From a virus: a stretch of 23,393 bases of DNA. The notes beneath the pieces are model-generated. The model did no database searches. It was not told where the DNA came from and saw nothing but the letters and a program-made list of their open reading frames with translations. The stretch covers positions 1 through 23,393 of IMG/VR virus record IMGVR_UViG_3300022514_000002; one strand, given 5' to 3'. This document shows, piece by piece, positions 2,407-23,393 of the stretch (positions within the stretch are counted from its first letter, which is position 1; the number at the start of each line of letters is the position of its first letter). The position numbers and the translations under genes were made by a program.

Positions 2407-4070
2407 TGCAGAACTATATACTGGAATACTGGGAGAAGATAGAAAGAGGCGAGATAGCGGCATGTAAAAGATTAAAACAACAATACAAAAAACTTGTCGA
2501 TGAAATAGAGAACCCACGTGAACCGTGGGTTTTTGATTTAGAGAAGGCCAATCAGCCCATCGAGTTCATAGAGAAATTCTGTAAGCACTCCAAGGGCAAG
2601 TGGGCAGGCAAGCCGGTCAAGCTGGAGCTCTTTCAGAAGGCGCTTATTCAAGCCGTGTATGGCTTTGTGCATAAAGAAACAGGATTGAGGCGGTGCAGGG
2701 AAGTATTTATCTTGTTGGGGCGGAAGAATGGTAAATCAACGCTCATGAGTGCTTTGGGGTTATACATGCTCGTAGGTGATGGTGAAGGTGGGGCAGAATG
2801 TTATTCGGTAGCCACAAAAAAAGATCAGGCAAGGATCGTGTTCGCTGAAGCTTGCAACATGGTAAGCCAAAGCCCGGCACTCAGAAAACATTTAAAGAAG
2901 CGCAAGACGGATTTATACTTTCCTGTTACATTTGGCAAGTATGAGCCGTTGGCATCGGAAAGTAACAGCTTGGATGGGCTTAACTCTCACTGTGTAATCA
3001 TGGATGAGCTACACGCTATTAAGGACCGGAACTTATACGATGTCATGAAGCAGTCGATGGCGGCAAGAGAACAGCCCATTCTGTTTATGATTACAACTGC
3101 TGGCTTTGTTCGTGAATGTATTTTTGATGATATATACAACTATGCCTGTAAGGCCCTTGATGGCGTGATAGATGATGAAAGGTTTTTGGCGTTTATTTAT
3201 GAGCTTGATGATAGAAGCGAGTGGACGGATTTTCGGGCATGGGAGAAGGCCAACCCAGGGCTTGGGACGATTAAGAATTACGAGGAACTGGCAGCAAATG
3301 TAGAGCGTGCCAAAAACGATCCTAATTTCTTGCCAACAGTCCTTACCAAAGATTTTAATGTTCGCGAAACTCTATCCAGTGCATGGTTAACCTTTGCTGA
3401 GGCGAACAATGAAGAAACGTTCGATATGGAAGAGATTCGAGGATGCTATGCTGTAGGTGGTGTGGACTTGAGTGCTACCACCGACTTGACGGCTGCAGCA
3501 CTTCTGGTGATGAAGCCTGGGAGCGAAAAGATATATGCTATTGTGCAAAGTTTTATGCCGGCTGACGCTGTAGAGGAGCGCACTAAAGAAGATAAGGTGC
3601 CATACGATATTTGGGTTCAGCGCGGATTAATAACACCCAGCCGTGGCAACAGGGTTGACTACAGAGATGTGACTGATTGGTTCTTGATGATGAAGGATAA
3701 ATACGGCATCTATCCTTATTGGGTTGGCTATGATAGCTGGAACTCACCCGCATGGGTTGAAGATATGGAAATGCGGGCAGGCTTTGAGCGTAACAAAACG
3801 CTAATACCAGTGATTATGGGAGCGAAGACATTGAGCGCTCCCATGAAACTTTTGAAGGCCGATCTGGGGAGTAAGCGAATAAACTATAACAACAATCCTG
3901 TATTGAAGTGGGCCTTGACAAATCTGGAAGTAGAAGTAGATAAGAACGAGAATATTAGACCGGTGAAGGGTAGAAATAAACGGCGTCGTATTGACCCGGC
4001 GGTAGCCCTCATCATTGCTTACACTGTTCTGTTGCAGGTTTATGAAGACTACCGTAACTTGAATTGTTGA
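2406..4070 (+). CDS. terL: Terminase large subunit (Terminase_1 / HK97 gp2 type)
   Basis: The 554-residue packaging motor has both expected domains. The ATPase carries a Walker A loop (LGRKNGKST, about 104-112), a Walker B strand ending in the acidic pair D200-E201 (CVIMDELHA) and a coupling motif TTAG at 230-233. The nuclease domain has its metal-binding aspartates at D354 (GGVDLSATTD), D443 (GYDSWN) and near 530 (RRIDPAVA). This is the Terminase_1 arrangement used by HK97-type siphophages. The length is standard and nothing is broken. It acts at the portal with TerS, and the neighbouring HNH protein probably helps with cleavage. The ATG shares one base with the TerS stop. Confidence 0.97.
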   Translation: MQNYILEYWEKIERGEIAACKRLKQQYKKLVDEIENPREPWVFDLEKANQPIEFIEKFCKHSKGKWAGKPVKLELFQKALIQAVYGFVHKETGLRRCREVFILLGRKNGKSTLMSALGLYMLVGDGEGGAECYSVATKKDQARIVFAEACNMVSQSPALRKHLKKRKTDLYFPVTFGKYEPLASESNSLDGLNSHCVIMDELHAIKDRNLYDVMKQSMAAREQPILFMITTAGFVRECIFDDIYNYACKALDGVIDDERFLAFIYELDDRSEWTDFRAWEKANPGLGTIKNYEELAANVERAKNDPNFLPTVLTKDFNVRETLSSAWLTFAEANNEETFDMEEIRGCYAVGGVDLSATTDLTAAALLVMKPGSEKIYAIVQSFMPADAVEERTKEDKVPYDIWVQRGLITPSRGNRVDYRDVTDWFLMMKDKYGIYPYWVGYDSWNSPAWVEDMEMRAGFERNKTLIPVIMGAKTLSAPMKLLKADLGSKRINYNNNPVLKWALTNLEVEVDKNENIRPVKGRNKRRRIDPAVALIIAYTVLLQVYEDYRNLNC

Positions 4071-4083
4071 GGAGGCAGGCTCC

Positions 4084-5262
4084 ATGAGTTTATTAGGCAC
4101 TATAGCGAATTTATTCAAAAAGAAACAGTACACATATATGCAGCCCGTGGATGATTATGAACCGATTTTTATCCAATGGGGTGGAATACCATACGAAAAT
4201 GACGTGGTGCGTGCTGCAGTGGATACTATAGCCAGGAACGCTGCAAAGCTGAATCCCAAACATGTGCGTGTGTCAGATGCCGGGATTTTTTGGATGAGAA
4301 GCAATTTGGAAAGGCTTCTTGCTTTGGAGCCCAACCCGTACATGTCGGCTTTTGATTTTTACTATCGTCTTGTAACTATGCGGGAACTGGATAACAATGC
4401 TTTTGCGTTGATTGTTTGGGGTGATTCAGGGGAAGTCCAGCAGCTTTTGCCAATCAACTGTTCGCAGGCAGAAATTCTTGAAGACAGGACAGGTACTCTT
4501 TATGTACGTGTGTGGTTGCTTGGAGAAAAATTTGAGTTTCCTTATAGCGAAGTCATTCATCTGCGCAAACATTATTACAAAAGTGAAGTGTGGGGAGAGA
4601 GTAATGATCCTATCAACACCGGCCTAAACATTCTTACAACTGTGGAACAGGGACTTGCAGAAGGGGTAAAAACCTCCACGTATTTACGTGGGATTATAAA
4701 ATATCAAGGGGTCCTAAAAGATGAGGACATAAAGAAAAATCGAGATAAATTTGTAGCCGAATATATGGATATTCAGAAGTCTGGTGGTGTGGCAGCTCTT
4801 GACGCCAAAGCGGAATATATTCCAGTCGAAAGTAAACCACAACTGGTTGATGCCGAGCAATTAAAAGTACTTAAAGACAAGGTTTATCACTACTTTGGCG
4901 TTAATGATGCAATTGTAACTGGAAATTACAACGAAGACCAGTGGACTGCTTTTTATGAAAGCATCTTGGAGCCTATTGCAGTGCAAATGAGCTTGGAGTT
5001 TACCAGAAAAATTTTTACGCCAAAAGAAATCGGCCACGGTAACCGGATTATTTTTGAGAGCAATCGCTTGCAGTATGCAAGCGTACGGACAAAAACTCAA
5101 CTTATAAAAGAGCTTATGCAATTTGGGATTTTGACGATTAATGAAGCCAGAGAAATTCTTAACCTAGCGCCTATTCCCAATGGTGATAGGCGGTTAGTGA
5201 GCTTGAATTATGTTAATGCTGACAAACAGGACCTTTATCAGGTAGGAAAGGAGGAAGAATAA
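4084..5262 (+). CDS. Portal protein, HK97 family
   Basis: Encodes 392 residues of the Phage_portal family, the dodecameric ring at the capsid vertex through which DNA enters and leaves. Recognisable parts are the N-terminal PYENDVVRAAVDTIARNAAKL helix, the EPNPYMSAFDFYYRLV segment, the GGVAALD turn and the late FTRKIF and LTINEAREILNL segments. The C-terminus follows the family pattern NLAPIPNGD. The ATG at 4084 is 12 bases after the TerL stop and has GAGGAGG upstream. Length and order (TerL, portal, protease) are normal. Confidence 0.96.
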   Translation: MSLLGTIANLFKKKQYTYMQPVDDYEPIFIQWGGIPYENDVVRAAVDTIARNAAKLNPKHVRVSDAGIFWMRSNLERLLALEPNPYMSAFDFYYRLVTMRELDNNAFALIVWGDSGEVQQLLPINCSQAEILEDRTGTLYVRVWLLGEKFEFPYSEVIHLRKHYYKSEVWGESNDPINTGLNILTTVEQGLAEGVKTSTYLRGIIKYQGVLKDEDIKKNRDKFVAEYMDIQKSGGVAALDAKAEYIPVESKPQLVDAEQLKVLKDKVYHYFGVNDAIVTGNYNEDQWTAFYESILEPIAVQMSLEFTRKIFTPKEIGHGNRIIFESNRLQYASVRTKTQLIKELMQFGILTINEAREILNLAPIPNGDRRLVSLNYVNADKQDLYQVGKEEE

Positions 5263-10604: not shown

Positions 10605-10919
10605 TCAGTTTTCTATTATTTGCTTTTGCCATAGCTTTCCGTTTTCAAATGTAATTTGAATAAATGTTTTCCCGGCTTGCCACATAATCATGCGGTGAAC
10701 TACTTTTTGTCCTGGCATTATTTCAGATTCTGCAGTACTGTCGGAAACTATCTTAAAACCAGAAAGAATTTCTGCGACTTCTTCATAACTCATTCCGGTT
10801 TTAAGCTTACTATAGGCAGTTTGTGCATCAATTTTTGTTTTTTCAGTGTTGTTGTTTCCACAACTCACTACAAAGAAAAGGAACAATACAGTTAACATTA
10901 AAACAAAGTATTTCTTCAC
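10605..10919 (-). CDS. Small lipoprotein, SmpA/BLIP-like fold; candidate superinfection-exclusion moron
   Basis: Encodes 104 residues on the strand opposite to all neighbours. It has a lipoprotein signal peptide: MKKYF, a hydrophobic run (VLMLTVLFLFFVV) and a lipobox ending SC at Cys20. The mature part has the motif YSKLKTGMSYEEVAEIL, typical of SmpA/OmlA or BLIP-like domains, and a last strand pair (FIQITFENGKLWQKQI). The start is GTG at 10917-10919 with a strong ribosome site (AAAGGAGGTGA). It has its own terminator. A TAAGAT at 10946-10951 on this strand could be a weak -10. Such self-contained genes in a tail operon are morons expressed from the prophage; an outer-surface lipoprotein next to the tape measure suggests blocking of DNA entry by related phages. 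That role is inference. Confidence 0.85.
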   Translation of the reverse strand: MKKYFVLMLTVLFLFFVVSCGNNNTEKTKIDAQTAYSKLKTGMSYEEVAEILSGFKIVSDSTAESEIMPGQKVVHRMIMWQAGKTFIQITFENGKLWQKQIIEN

Positions 10920-20986: not shown

Positions 20987-21391
20987 ATGAAGTACGAAAA
21001 TATATCCAAGACAATCTGTAGTGTTGGAGGCGCTCTTGCCTCCTATCTTTTTGGGGGGTGGAGCGCGTTGCTAGAAATATTGTTGGCATTTGTGGCTATT
21101 GATTATATTACCGGTGTTATTGCTGCTGGCATAGAGGGAAAACTGAATAGTAGTATAGGTTGGAAGGGCATTGCTAAAAAAGTGGGCATATTTGTGATTG
21201 TGGCGGTTGCTAACCTTGTAGACAGGGCACTAGGCGATGCTCACATCTTTAGAGATGCAACTATATTTTTCTACCTTGCGAATGAGCTTTTGAGCATCAT
21301 AGAAAATACCGGCCGTATTGGACTGCCTGTGCCTGATGCGATACAGAAGGCTGTAGCGATATTAAAAGGGAAGGGAGATGTGAAACAATGA
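20987..21391 (+). CDS. Holin, phage_holin_4 (TcdE-like) family
   Basis: Encodes 134 residues with hydrophobic segments at about 12-32, 33-50 (ALLEILLAFVAIDYITGVIAAG), 66-80 (GIFVIVAVANLVD) and 90-103. The DYITGVIAAG motif, then the GLPVPDAIQKAVAILKG tail, identify the phage_holin_4 / toxin-secretion holin family, which opens the membrane for the endolysin at the end of infection. ATG follows AGGGAGG. Its stop overlaps the amidase start by four bases (ATGA), so the lysis pair is translationally coupled. Confidence 0.93.
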   Translation: MKYENISKTICSVGGALASYLFGGWSALLEILLAFVAIDYITGVIAAGIEGKLNSSIGWKGIAKKVGIFVIVAVANLVDRALGDAHIFRDATIFFYLANELLSIIENTGRIGLPVPDAIQKAVAILKGKGDVKQ

Positions 21392-22095
21392 TAGTGTGCA
21401 TTGACCCGGGACATGGAGGCAAAGACCCCGGCGCAAGTGGGAATGGTGTAATTGAAAAAGAAGTAACCCTTGATTTGGCATTTCGCATAAAAGATAAATT
21501 GCTTAAAAATTACGAGGGAGTAGAGATAATTTTGGCTCGCAGTAGTGATACTTACATCAGTTTAGAAGACAGAGCCAAAATAGCAAACGATGCGAATGCC
21601 GATTATTTTCACTCAATTCACATAAATGCAGCAGAAAATCTCGCAGCAAAAGGATATGAAGACTATATACACAGCAGCCTAACAGATGACTCAAAGACAG
21701 CAAAAATAAGAGACGTAATCCGTGAAGAAATTATAAACTATCTCAAAAATTATGGGATAGTTGACAGAGGGAAAAAGAAGGCCAATTTTGCCGTATTAAG
21801 ACTGACTAAGATGTCAGCAGTTTTGACAGAGAATTTATTTTTAACTAGTCCGGAAGAATCTGAGTTGCTAAAGAACGATAGCTTTTTAGACGGATTAGCC
21901 GACGCACATGCGAAGGGAATAGCGAAGGCCCTTAACTTACCGCAAAAGGCAAACACACCAACAACGGTAGCACAAAGCAATGTTTTATGGTTAGTGCAAT
22001 TGGGAGCATTCAAAAACAAGGAAAATGCAGAGAGGTTAGCAGCAGAATTAAAGAGCAAAGGTTATTCAGTTTTTATAAAGAAAGAGACAAGATAA
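21388..22095 (+). CDS. Endolysin: N-acetylmuramoyl-L-alanine amidase (Amidase_3) with partial SPOR tail
   Basis: Encodes 235 residues. Amidase_3 (about 1-183) has all zinc and catalytic positions: H9 (DPGHGG), E23 (VIEKE), H78 (HSIHINA) and E148 (VLTENLF). It cuts the bond between muramic acid and the stem peptide after the holin acts. The C-terminus (about 199-235, WLVQLGAFKNKENAERLAAELKSKGY) is the first half of a SPOR domain, which normally binds denuded glycan and is about 70 residues long; here it ends after one strand-helix-strand unit. The truncation may be a real variant or a recent loss. The family assignment is secure. Confidence 0.94.
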   Translation: MIVCIDPGHGGKDPGASGNGVIEKEVTLDLAFRIKDKLLKNYEGVEIILARSSDTYISLEDRAKIANDANADYFHSIHINAAENLAAKGYEDYIHSSLTDDSKTAKIRDVIREEIINYLKNYGIVDRGKKKANFAVLRLTKMSAVLTENLFLTSPEESELLKNDSFLDGLADAHAKGIAKALNLPQKANTPTTVAQSNVLWLVQLGAFKNKENAERLAAELKSKGYSVFIKKETR

Positions 22096-22202: not shown

Positions 22203-22285
22203 TGAACCACTGAAAACACGAATGTGTCGTAGGTGGTGCAATGCCCTGCAAATCCGAATAGGAAATGCGGGGCCTCTTTTTTTTT
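22203..22285 (+). ncRNA. Small structured RNA with an embedded six-codon ORF
   Basis: About 80 nt from the promoter start to a terminator. Hairpin 1: ACCAC (22206-22210) pairs with GTGGT (22233-22237), enclosing ACAC/GTGT around a GAAT loop. Hairpin 2: GCCCTGCA (22243-22250) pairs with TGCGGGGC (22266-22273), then a symmetric AA/AA internal loop and TCC/GGA around GAATA; it is followed by CCTC and nine T (22277-22285), a strong terminator. A tiny ORF (22241-22261, MPCKSE) has AGGTGGT before its ATG; its coding region covers the left arm of the terminator. It could be a leader-peptide attenuator or a small RNA. No family recognised. About 90 bases of plain intergenic DNA follow to 22376. Confidence 0.55.
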
Positions 22286-22376
22286 ATGTCTTCATGAGGC
22301 GGATGTATATTTCTATGCCCGTTCAATTTTCTCTCATTGTAGGACAAATACAAACGTTATCATGGGGGTAAAAATA

Positions 22377-22398
22377 AAAGGGCTTGTTAGCCCTTTTT
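22377..22398. terminator. Bidirectional terminator between the late region and the minus operon
   Basis: AAAAGGGCT and AGCCCTTTT form a perfect stem around TGTT. Reading +, it ends in five T; reading -, the tail is TTTTATTTTT. It serves the minus-strand operon that converges here. The stop codon of the ribbon-helix-helix gene (22387-22389) lies in its loop and stem. Confidence 0.85.
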
Positions 22399-22542
22399 GT
22401 TCTCATCTATAATCTCTCTTAATTTCTCCCTAATAAACTCCGACATGGAATATCCCATCTCGGCAAGCTTTTGTTCGGCTTTCTTCTTTAGTTGAGATGG
22501 TAACTTTACTTGTATATATGTATCGTTTTTTTTGATTCTCAA
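22387..22542 (-). CDS. Ribbon-helix-helix (CopG/Arc-like) DNA-binding protein
   Basis: A 51-residue protein, short enough to be missed by usual ORF cut-offs. It reads MRIKKNDTYIQVKLPSQL, the N-terminal beta-strand with alternating residues that reads DNA in RHH proteins, then KKKAEQKLAEMGYSMSEFI with the GYSMSEFIRE turn into helix B, and a basic-acidic end. The TTG start at 22540-22542 has an excellent ribosome site (GGAGGAGG), 16 bases after the stop of the gene before it, so the two are in one operon. RHH proteins of this size act as dimeric repressors, antitoxins or autoregulators. As the last gene of a small operon it may control that operon. No partner toxin is recognised. Confidence 0.85.
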   Translation of the reverse strand: MRIKKNDTYIQVKLPSQLKKKAEQKLAEMGYSMSEFIREKLREIIDENKKG

Positions 22543-22558
22543 GTTTCCTCCTCCTTTC

Positions 22559-22939
22559 TTATTCCCAGCCGTCTATCCCCTTTTTAAAAGGGGAAATAAC
22601 ATACGTACAATGTGGAAGGGCGCCGTCAAATTGGCGACGCTTCCCTCCTTCTTCGTCCTCGTCTATGAACGAGAACGGAATCTGAAAACTATTCGCAAGC
22701 GTAGTAACTGCTTTTTTAAGCTTAGTAATTTCTTCCTCAGAGGCTTCATCTCCGAGATAAAGCCCACATACCTCTACAGGCTCTAAAACGCATCTGTACG
22801 GCCTGTAGAGGACGGCTACTCCTATGTTTCCCTCCCATTTCTGGGAAGGATGAATATGCAAGTCTATCCCAGCATAGTAGGGAATGTCCCCTACTACGAT
22901 TTTTATTTTTTTGACAAGAAATTCTTTTAAAAGGAACAT
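22559..22939 (-). CDS. Unknown small protein, 126 residues
   Basis: A 126-residue protein with alternating beta-strands (IKIVVGDIPYYAG, GNIGVAVLYRP, VEVCGLYLGD), then a helix (EEEITKLKKAVTTLANS) and an acidic loop with EDEEGGKRR. No signal peptide, membrane segment or zinc pair. I recognise no family. The ATG at 22937-22939 has AAGGAGGA at the correct distance. It lies in the minus-strand operon between an 89-residue unknown gene and the RHH gene, and is preceded by a hairpin (22969-22987) that also precedes the upstream gene. It is likely accessory: host takeover, defence escape or immunity. Confidence 0.8.
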   Translation of the reverse strand: MFLLKEFLVKKIKIVVGDIPYYAGIDLHIHPSQKWEGNIGVAVLYRPYRCVLEPVEVCGLYLGDEASEEEITKLKKAVTTLANSFQIPFSFIDEDEEGGKRRQFDGALPHCTYVISPFKKGIDGWE

Positions 22940-22968
22940 TTTTTTATTCCTCCTTTATTTTTTTAAAT

Positions 22969-22987
22969 AGGCGTATCGGCTACGCCT
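22969..22987 (-). repeat. Intercistronic hairpin repeat, copy 1
   Basis: AGGCGTA and TACGCCT form a perfect seven-base stem around five bases. On the minus strand it is followed by an AT-rich run and AAAGGAGGAAT before the ATG of the 126-residue gene. The same 19-base hairpin occurs at 23295-23313 with the same downstream pattern. There is no T run, so it is not a terminator. It could be an mRNA stabiliser, a processing site or an operator. Confidence 0.75.
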
Positions 22988-22993
22988 ATAATT

Positions 22994-23263
22994 TTAGTAC
23001 TCAAGAGTAATAGGTTCATCGGGCTGCAGATTGAAGTGTTCTGCAGTCCTTTGTTGTGCATAAGAGAGGATTGCCTCTCTTATGCTTTTTCCTATTGGGA
23101 CGTATAGAACTACGTCTTTTTCTATAAAAGTTTCTCGGGGAATACGTGTCCCCTTTTTGCAGACTGATAGTGTAAAAGTGACATACCAAAAATCTTGATT
23201 CCATTTAGTTAAATCCTGATCTTTATAATCAGTTATGTTGACTACATATATTCTTTTATTCAT
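22994..23263 (-). CDS. Unknown small protein, 89 residues
   Basis: An 89-residue protein: an N-terminal beta segment (KRIYVVNITDYKDQD), then WNQDFWYVTFTLSVC, a strand pair and a C-terminal helix (KSIREAILSYAQQRTAEHF) ending LQPDEPITLEY. No catalytic motif and no known family. ATG at 23261-23263 follows AAAGGAGGAAT and the second hairpin repeat. Its size, lack of homology to families I know, and its place in an operon that ends in an RHH protein are compatible with an anti-defence gene, but nothing in the sequence proves that. Confidence 0.78.
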   Translation of the reverse strand: MNKRIYVVNITDYKDQDLTKWNQDFWYVTFTLSVCKKGTRIPRETFIEKDVVLYVPIGKSIREAILSYAQQRTAEHFNLQPDEPITLEY

Positions 23264-23294
23264 TTAAATTCCTCCTTTATTTTTTTTGAAATTC

Positions 23295-23313
23295 AGGCGT
23301 ATCGGCTACGCCT
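23295..23313 (-). repeat. Intercistronic hairpin repeat, copy 2
   Basis: Identical to the hairpin at 22969-22987 over all 19 bases (AGGCGTATCGGCTACGCCT on +). It is likewise followed on the minus strand by an A-rich run and the ribosome site of the next gene. The stop of the preceding partial gene lies inside the hairpin. Confidence 0.75.
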
Positions 23314-23393
23314 GCACTGTAACTTTGAAGAATTTGAATTGGAATCCTTCCGGTAAAATTTTCCCTGCTCTAGCAGGTTGAGCGTAGCAGCCT
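23306..23393 (-). CDS. C-terminal end of another gene of the minus operon
   Basis: The minus strand is open from the window edge for 28 codons to a TAG at 23306-23308 inside the hairpin repeat. It reads CYAQPARAGKILPEGFQF, then FKVTVQA. The stop lies just before the leader of the next gene in the same spacing pattern, which supports a real gene. No family can be named. Confidence 0.45.
   Translation of the reverse strand, partial: GCYAQPARAGKILPEGFQFKFFKVTVQA

Follow-up and report, generated by a model that had tools for sequence, protein, structure and literature searches.

Twister-sister ribozymes and a second RNA hairpin between the genes of a probable phage accessory operon

The window, by which we mean the whole IMG/VR virus record of 23,393 bases analysed here, rather likely holds the 3′ end of a polycistronic phage accessory operon, in which exchangeable genes are separated by RNA elements, the transcript is processed by ribozymes and a ribbon-helix-helix (RHH) protein represses the operon. 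Operons of this kind are found between a lysis module and an integrase, one of their genes is or was AcrIII-1 (DUF1874), and the RHH gene comes last; the phage itself is probably temperate. The original prediction had seen here small genes in the layout of an anti-CRISPR (acr-aca) operon. It was mostly right about the genes and partly right in that reading, and the unusual part of the locus is its RNA.

Results

Genes at the right end of the window

The right end of the window carries, on the minus strand, open reading frames of 51, 126 and 89 amino acids, each preceded by a GGAGG-type ribosome binding site (RBS). On the opposite strand lie a gene for a holin (PF05105, 147 bits) and one for a SPOR-domain amidase (PF01520, 163 bits). 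The features are as follows.

20987–22095, plus strand: lysis module beside the operon (holin 20987–21391, amidase 21388–22095)
22376–22397, minus strand: terminator-like hairpin closing the operon (9-pair stem, then ATTTTTA)
22387–22542, minus strand: RHH protein, 51 aa, last gene of the operon (PF01402 and phrog_2737)
22559–22939, minus strand: 126-aa protein of no known family; its gene is followed directly by the RHH gene
22967–22989, minus strand: AGCCGAU-loop hairpin with a 9-bp stem, between the 89-aa and 126-aa genes
22994–23263, minus strand: 89-aa protein of no known family, exchangeable cassette (open reading frame)
23294–23314, minus strand: AGCCGAU-loop hairpin with an 8-bp stem, holding the stop codon of the DUF1874 relic
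23306–23356, minus strand: DUF1874/AcrIII-1 relic, last 16 codons (LPEGFQFKFFKVTVQA) and stop, from blastn and translation
23362–23393, minus strand: twister-sister ribozyme, 3′ half only, truncated at the contig end (positions 46–77 of model R1)
23364–23377, minus strand: hairpin CCTGCTAGAGCAGG within the ribozyme half

The predicted operon opposite the lysis genes stands for three genes but not for the partial fourth that had been placed at the contig end. The minus-strand frame there (23302–23392) has no start codon within the contig; a ribozyme 3′ half and a gene relic had been taken for a gene, and the RNA elements had been missed. The last gene had been called an RHH gene, and this is borne out by a marginal match to PF01402 (21.4 bits, cut-off 20.5) and a match to phrog_2737 (E 4.5e-7). 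The 126-aa and 89-aa proteins, said to have no recognised family, gave only weak matches below cut-off in Pfam, PHROGs, NCBIfam and PADLOC. A search of the phages collection at E 0.1 found no relatives of either, or of the RHH protein. The AlphaFold2 model of the 126-aa protein was too poor to be of use (pLDDT 40). The single-sequence model of the 89-aa protein was fair (pLDDT 83) and has the order beta-beta-beta-alpha-beta, with no Foldseek match at E 0.001 in the PDB or the viral library. Its best VIA-align hits, a designed binder (8wwc_D, Z 6.0, 63 residues, 2.7 Å) and RAD52 (8rj3_I, Z 5.1, 72 residues, 2.8 Å), fall in the range that the tool calls common.

Three other stretches of the window were recorded. 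Between the amidase and the RHH terminator, positions 22240–22276 match the DUF3800-VIII RNA below threshold (27.1 bits, gathering 40.2). Some 50 nt between that terminator and the lysis genes (22313–22365, ATGATAACGTTTGTATTTG...TTGAACGGGCATAG) recur in contig L004 and, in a less exact form, in L002 and L003, where the flanking genes differ; the repeat is promoter-like or attachment-site-like. A 104-aa lipoprotein-like reading frame (MKKYFVLMLTVLFLFFVVSCGNNN...; 10605–10919, minus), on the opposite strand to the tail genes, could be a gene of the superinfection-exclusion type.

A DUF1874 relic and half a ribozyme at the contig end

Window positions 23259–23338 match the 3′ end of the DUF1874 gene of phage THSA-485A by blastn (E 1e-7, 78.8%). 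The protein ends in LPEGFQFKFFKVTVQA in the window and in LPAGFSFKFFKVTVQA in THSA-485A, each followed by a stop codon. Intact members with the conserved His occur in the operons of THSA-485A and L169 and are like AcrIII-1 (PF08960, 6scf), whereas the full domain with that His is absent from the window, which keeps only the 16 C-terminal codons.

Five nucleotides upstream of the relic ends a 32-nt stretch comprising the P2 3′ strand, the CGCUCA core and the P1 3′ strand of a ribozyme. It matches positions 46–77 of our own model R1, 5′ truncated, at 26.2 bits; chance matches to R1 score 19–36 bits, so its identity rests on the 30 nt that are identical to the L002 ribozyme at 4831 (RF02681, 42.3 bits) and not on the score. 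Cleavage is predicted between 23380 (C) and 23379 (A). A scan of the window with RF02681 gave no match; the ribozyme 5′ half, with the GCAAG core and the complete stems, lies beyond the contig end, as does the operon promoter. Since the end of the window matches both a ribozyme 3′ half and the L002 ribozyme, the contig ends inside a ribozyme copy. An assembly break at this point is plausible, because several similar copies are present in related contigs. Where ribozyme meets relic, about 36 nt from the end of a metagenome contig, the join may be a real deletion or an assembly artefact.

Related operons

Three contigs carry relatives of the 126-aa protein: L002 (86%), L003 (80%) and L004 (74% match, with the frame split by an indel). 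In all four contigs, the window included, the RHH gene lies directly downstream. Close homologues of the RHH protein were likewise found in only these three other contigs (84% identical in L002, 71% in L003 and 65% in L004). Upstream of this conserved end the genes vary among contigs, and those of L002 and L004 differ.

The L002 operon reads: integrase, promoter, a 23-codon leader (by eye), ribozyme, 90-aa gene, ribozyme, 120-aa gene, AGCCGAU hairpin, 91-aa gene, AGCCGAU hairpin, 126-aa gene, RHH gene and terminator, the last an element like the terminator hairpin of the window. Ahead of the operon there is one strong promoter match (11/12, extended −10), and beyond the terminator other genes lie on the opposite strand. 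The order in L004 is ribozyme, 91-aa gene, ribozyme, then genes for 70, 69 and 126 aa (the last frame split), RHH gene and a 97-aa gene. L169 has a poly(A)-polymerase-head protein, an intact DUF1874 gene, AGCCGAU hairpin, 119-aa gene, AGCCGAU hairpin and RHH gene; its opposite strand carries genes that by eye resemble holin and lysin genes. The THSA-485A counterpart comprises eight genes: Tsac_2836 comes first and has a ribozyme behind it, DUF1874 lies farther on, and a CopG-type gene ends the block. This block is flanked by lysins and a recombinase on the circular record, and the L002 operon by lysis genes and integrase. The RHH gene is the last in the window, L002, L003, THSA-485A and L169. 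Gaps that hold no RNA element are the 126-aa/RHH junction and, in L004, also the junctions between the 70-, 69- and 126-aa genes.

The 89-aa protein was matched in one other contig only, L002, where its gene is 97.4% identical at the DNA level, but the sequence upstream of its RBS differs. This fall in identity suggests a cassette boundary at the RNA element.

Two tRNA-like observations were made in these contigs. L002 has a tRNA-like piece behind the integrase (4344–4398, minus; 25.5 bits, below gathering), perhaps an attachment site, and L006 has, between Tsac_2835 and Tsac_2834 (2880–3150), two stretches resembling a tRNA T arm that lie beside an AGCCGAU hairpin.

Twister-sister ribozymes between genes

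The ribozyme elements in the relatives are almost certainly of the twister-sister class. The Rfam model RF02681 matched above gathering in L002, L004 and L008, with 12 further rows for other phage loci and scores of up to 63 bits. It was searched against 49 records; the remaining DUF1874 loci were scanned with R1. At E 1, Rfam did not find the second copies of L002 and L004 or the copies of THSA and L009, and all copies other than the RF02681 matches are recognised by R1 only. The elements have the parts of the class (RF02681), as outlined in PMC5660989: P1, the GCAAG/CGCUCA internal loop, P2, a stem with a GUGNAAG-type loop and a fourth stem. They differ from RF02681 in that many phage copies have U for the first core A (GCUAG), and in that the 3′ strand of P1 is shared with a downstream hairpin.

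Scanning viral contigs by pattern gave 7 distinct matches with the A core and 27 with the U core; at E<=0.05, R1 recorded 51 matches from 38 sources. When 30 whole records were scanned with R1 at E<=0.001, 26 gave matches, and 15 of these carried between two and four copies. Phage copies score 42–93 bits with R1, apart from L247:4383 (35.6), L264:3988 (22.7) and the window half; cores are broken in some copies (L247:4383, L159:1074). In an alignment of 42 distinct rows, 95.1% of cells are paired, against 35–46% when the pairing is slid, and 12 of the 19 pairs show changes on both sides. Such two-sided changes occupy 174 cells, compared with 57.9 in shuffles and 27–56 in slid versions. P1 is nearly invariant because the search patterns demanded GCAGG/CCTGC.

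Distinct matches to the same pattern in genome_contigs (35) score 19–36 bits and were taken as chance occurrences in coding DNA; 34 of the 35 have enough DNA downstream for the control counts given below. A looser pattern gave at least 119 stretches; among the matches listed, only those in L112 and L159 passed the ribozyme anchors with an RBS.

Contigs that bear these ribozymes also gave matches to RAGATH-18 (L253, 706–767), DUF3800-VII (L248, 2550–2639), a group I intron (L112, 8321–8664) and a CRISPR repeat (L265, 1249–1278). At the ends of two DUF1874 genes (L183, 5250–5310; L202, 430–520) only the start of a ribozyme (GCAGGGCTAGG) is left, and in L183 the gene seems to have captured ribozyme sequence as its C-terminal QG and stop codon.

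Position of the ribozymes relative to stops and starts

Because the selection filter required both a hairpin and an RBS, alignment A5 and model R1 lean towards copies that have them, and the unbiased count is that of unselected pattern matches. This set comprised 33 viral matches with at least 70 nt downstream, and the control 34 genome_contigs matches to the same pattern. A GCAGG site able to re-pair with P1 lay within 17 nt in 24/33 viral matches and 2/34 controls, and an RBS with start codon followed in 26/33 and 2/34 respectively. No control match (0/34) had both.

Among 41 distinct R1 copies, 36 have an RBS and start codon behind them, the start at a median of 38 nt from the CTCAA core. 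These copies come from 46 listed of the 51 matches; left out were the window half, L264:3988, and L251, L254 and L257, which are the same contigs as L188, L190 and L191. A 4-bp re-pairing site for the P1 3′ strand is present in 30 of the 41, so the 5′-hairpin step is not universal. The cleavage product AACCUGCU..GCAGG..RBS is predicted to fold into a hairpin at its 5′ end (−7.4 kcal/mol, z −2.3).

Upstream, the U at the third core position (GCUAG) creates a TAG that the preceding gene can use as its stop. The core TAG ends an upstream frame of at least 40 codons in 12 of 33 U-core copies, a set that includes L159:1074 with its otherwise broken core. The other upstream stops (frames of at least 45 codons) lie 7–15 nt before the core, with one at 28 nt.

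A second element, the AGCCGAU-loop hairpin

The two 17-nt hairpins of the window far exceed chance: none of 100 shuffles gave as many matches (mean 0.03). A GCCGA loop closed by A-U stands behind stop codons in the window (two), L002 (two), L169 (two), L180, L262, L264 and THSA-485A; L262 and L264 carry ribozymes as well. For hairpins with stems of at least 6 bp in the viral loci analysed, no other loop precedes an RBS and ATG as commonly as GCCGA (9/40, against 6/80 for the next); two of the nine come from L169, which was collected by means of the AGCCGAU motif. The stems vary among relatives with pairing kept. As the set was chosen largely by stem complementarity and includes one degenerate THSA copy in which 4/6 pairs form, this covariation is weaker evidence than the fixed loop. 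Hairpin matches in L167, L168, L170 and L171 failed the RBS filter and were taken as chance.

DUF1874 loci and the acr-aca layout

Intact DUF1874 genes stand in the RHH-terminated operons of THSA-485A and L169, upstream of small unknown genes; the L169 protein matches PF08960 at 55.8 bits. The DUF1874 proteins of the relatives resemble PDB entries 2j6b, 2x4i, 2j85 and 6scf (E 1.3e-8 for the last). We take 6scf to be the AcrIII-1 ring nuclease, and the conserved His of the L169 and THSA-485A proteins is presumably its catalytic His.

A scan with two DUF1874 proteins gave 67 viral loci. PF01402 (RHH_1) was found at E<=0.1 in five of these records (4/43 and 1/24), and by coordinates an RHH gene shares the operon with DUF1874 in two of the 67, THSA-485A and L169, which rules out RHH as a general partner of DUF1874. 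R1 matched four of the 67 loci, L172 (THSA), L188, L190 and L191, the last three from one metagenome. The combination of DUF1874 with ribozymes or RHH is thus a local design and not a property of DUF1874.

Two of these loci have other features beside DUF1874. In L174 (286–1389) a protein with the head domain of tRNA nucleotidyltransferase/poly(A) polymerase (PF01743) is encoded just upstream on the same strand, with a possible role in mending tRNA ends that host defences attack. In L180 about 700 nt of apparently structured non-coding sequence (4080–4800), with no Rfam match at E 1, lie directly upstream of the DUF1874 gene.

Known Aca proteins are helix-turn-helix (HTH) proteins. Like acr-aca operons, the window has small unrelated genes followed by a gene for a DNA-binding protein, but that protein is of the RHH and not the HTH type. 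The acr-aca layout of the original prediction is partly supported by the final position of the RHH gene, the DUF1874 relic, the turnover of upstream genes and the place beside lysis and integration genes, and not by any usual partnership of RHH with DUF1874. Comparison of RHH homologues revealed differing small genes upstream in L002 and L004, a check of little power since close homologues occur in only three other contigs. No clear palindrome or binding site for the RHH protein was seen upstream of the L002, L169 or THSA operons.

Discussion

In the working that we propose, one promoter would give a long transcript, and each twister-sister ribozyme in it would cut at CGCUC^A, a short way ahead of the gene that follows. 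The choice of site follows the report of cleavage at C62-A63, adjoining C58-G59-C60-U61 (PMC5660989). After the cut, the P1 3′ strand (CCUGC) would re-pair with GCAGG just downstream, giving a single-gene mRNA that begins with AA, a hairpin and an RBS, and the 5′ hairpin may stabilise this mRNA. The RHH protein would repress the operon promoter; we give its role as operon repressor an even chance. That the ribozymes process the operon RNA in vivo seems to us, on the sequence evidence, somewhat better than an even bet.

The arrangement is like that of RiboJ, a ribozyme with a 23-nt hairpin ahead of the RBS (PMC6206723), and the cleaved phage mRNA would likewise begin with a hairpin. RiboJ, as described there, is engineered and has a separate hairpin, whereas the phage element is natural and intergenic and reuses its own P1 strand. 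The nearest natural case is that of tandem hammerheads, which flank single small prophage genes, including the anti-restriction gene ardA, and for which processing to single-gene mRNAs was proposed (PMC3088659). The phage elements belong to another ribozyme class, and features here that differ from that account are the gene end that can overlap the core and the recurrent re-pairing 5′ hairpin.

More tentatively, the ribozyme may be a gene-punctuation module: a stop codon in or just before the core, self-cleavage, and a P1 strand that refolds into a 5′ hairpin insulating and stabilising the next mRNA. Anti-defence genes could then be exchanged as cassettes whatever their neighbours, and cleavage might be coupled to termination of upstream translation. 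The AGCCGAU hairpin would be a second RNA element doing the same job, as a processing site or a protein-binding site. A literature search gave no title or abstract opening that describes twister-sister gene punctuation in phage operons, which says little because subscription papers lay mostly outside it.

The strongest competing explanation is an acr-aca operon proper, in which the 126- and 89-aa proteins would be anti-CRISPR or anti-defence proteins, the RHH protein a new Aca shutting the operon down, and the RNA elements incidental. We consider it slightly short of an even prospect. DUF1874 in the operon or its relatives, the final RHH gene, gene turnover and the integrase neighbourhood all agree with it, but the RHH homologues are too few, RHH shares an operon with DUF1874 in only two of 67 records, and in L004 the 97-aa gene comes after the RHH gene. 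Against our own main reading stands the report that SIRV2 AcrIII-1 did not act as an anti-CRISPR when naturally expressed (PMC11065993). The small genes, those for the 89- and 126-aa proteins among them, may have an anti-defence function, for which we see the chances as roughly equal either way.

It is unlikely that the intergenic elements serve mainly as recombination sites for shuffling gene cassettes at the DNA level, with self-cleavage secondary. Such shuffling would agree with the drop in identity between the window and L002 at the intergenic element, with a contig that ends inside a ribozyme copy and a DUF1874 relic that adjoins the ribozyme half, and with the ribozyme start left as the DUF1874 C-terminus in L183; but homologous recombination does not require stems that covary, and the near-constant spacing to start codons also speaks against it. 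A toxin-antitoxin module, with the RHH protein as RelB/ParD-like antitoxin and the 126-aa (or L004 97-aa) protein as toxin, is improbable: the RHH protein does match RelB_DinJ (E 8.5e-8), the 126-aa and RHH genes are 16 nt apart and the RHH stop overlaps the next start in L004, but the RelB_DinJ and PF04221 scores are below cut-off (32.3 against 45.65 bits and 19.6 against 22.4), no toxin family was found above cut-off for the 126-, 89- or 97-aa proteins in Pfam, NCBIfam or PADLOC, the antitoxin would stand second, and the 126-aa frame is broken in L004.

Twister-sister ribozymes came to light through a search around ribozyme-associated genes, some of which are phage genes (PMC10085705, PMC4604425), and the reason for the concentration of self-cleaving ribozymes near certain genes of bacteria and phages is posed as an open question in PMC10085705. 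Operons of small genes with ribozymes in successive gaps, at near-fixed distances from stops and starts, offer a direct test of that question. If the processing and punctuation proposed here are true, the unknown neighbours of these elements would be anti-defence candidates, since the genes beside them include AcrIII-1, and the elements a handle for finding more; the punctuation module would then be a natural counterpart of the insulator of synthetic biology.
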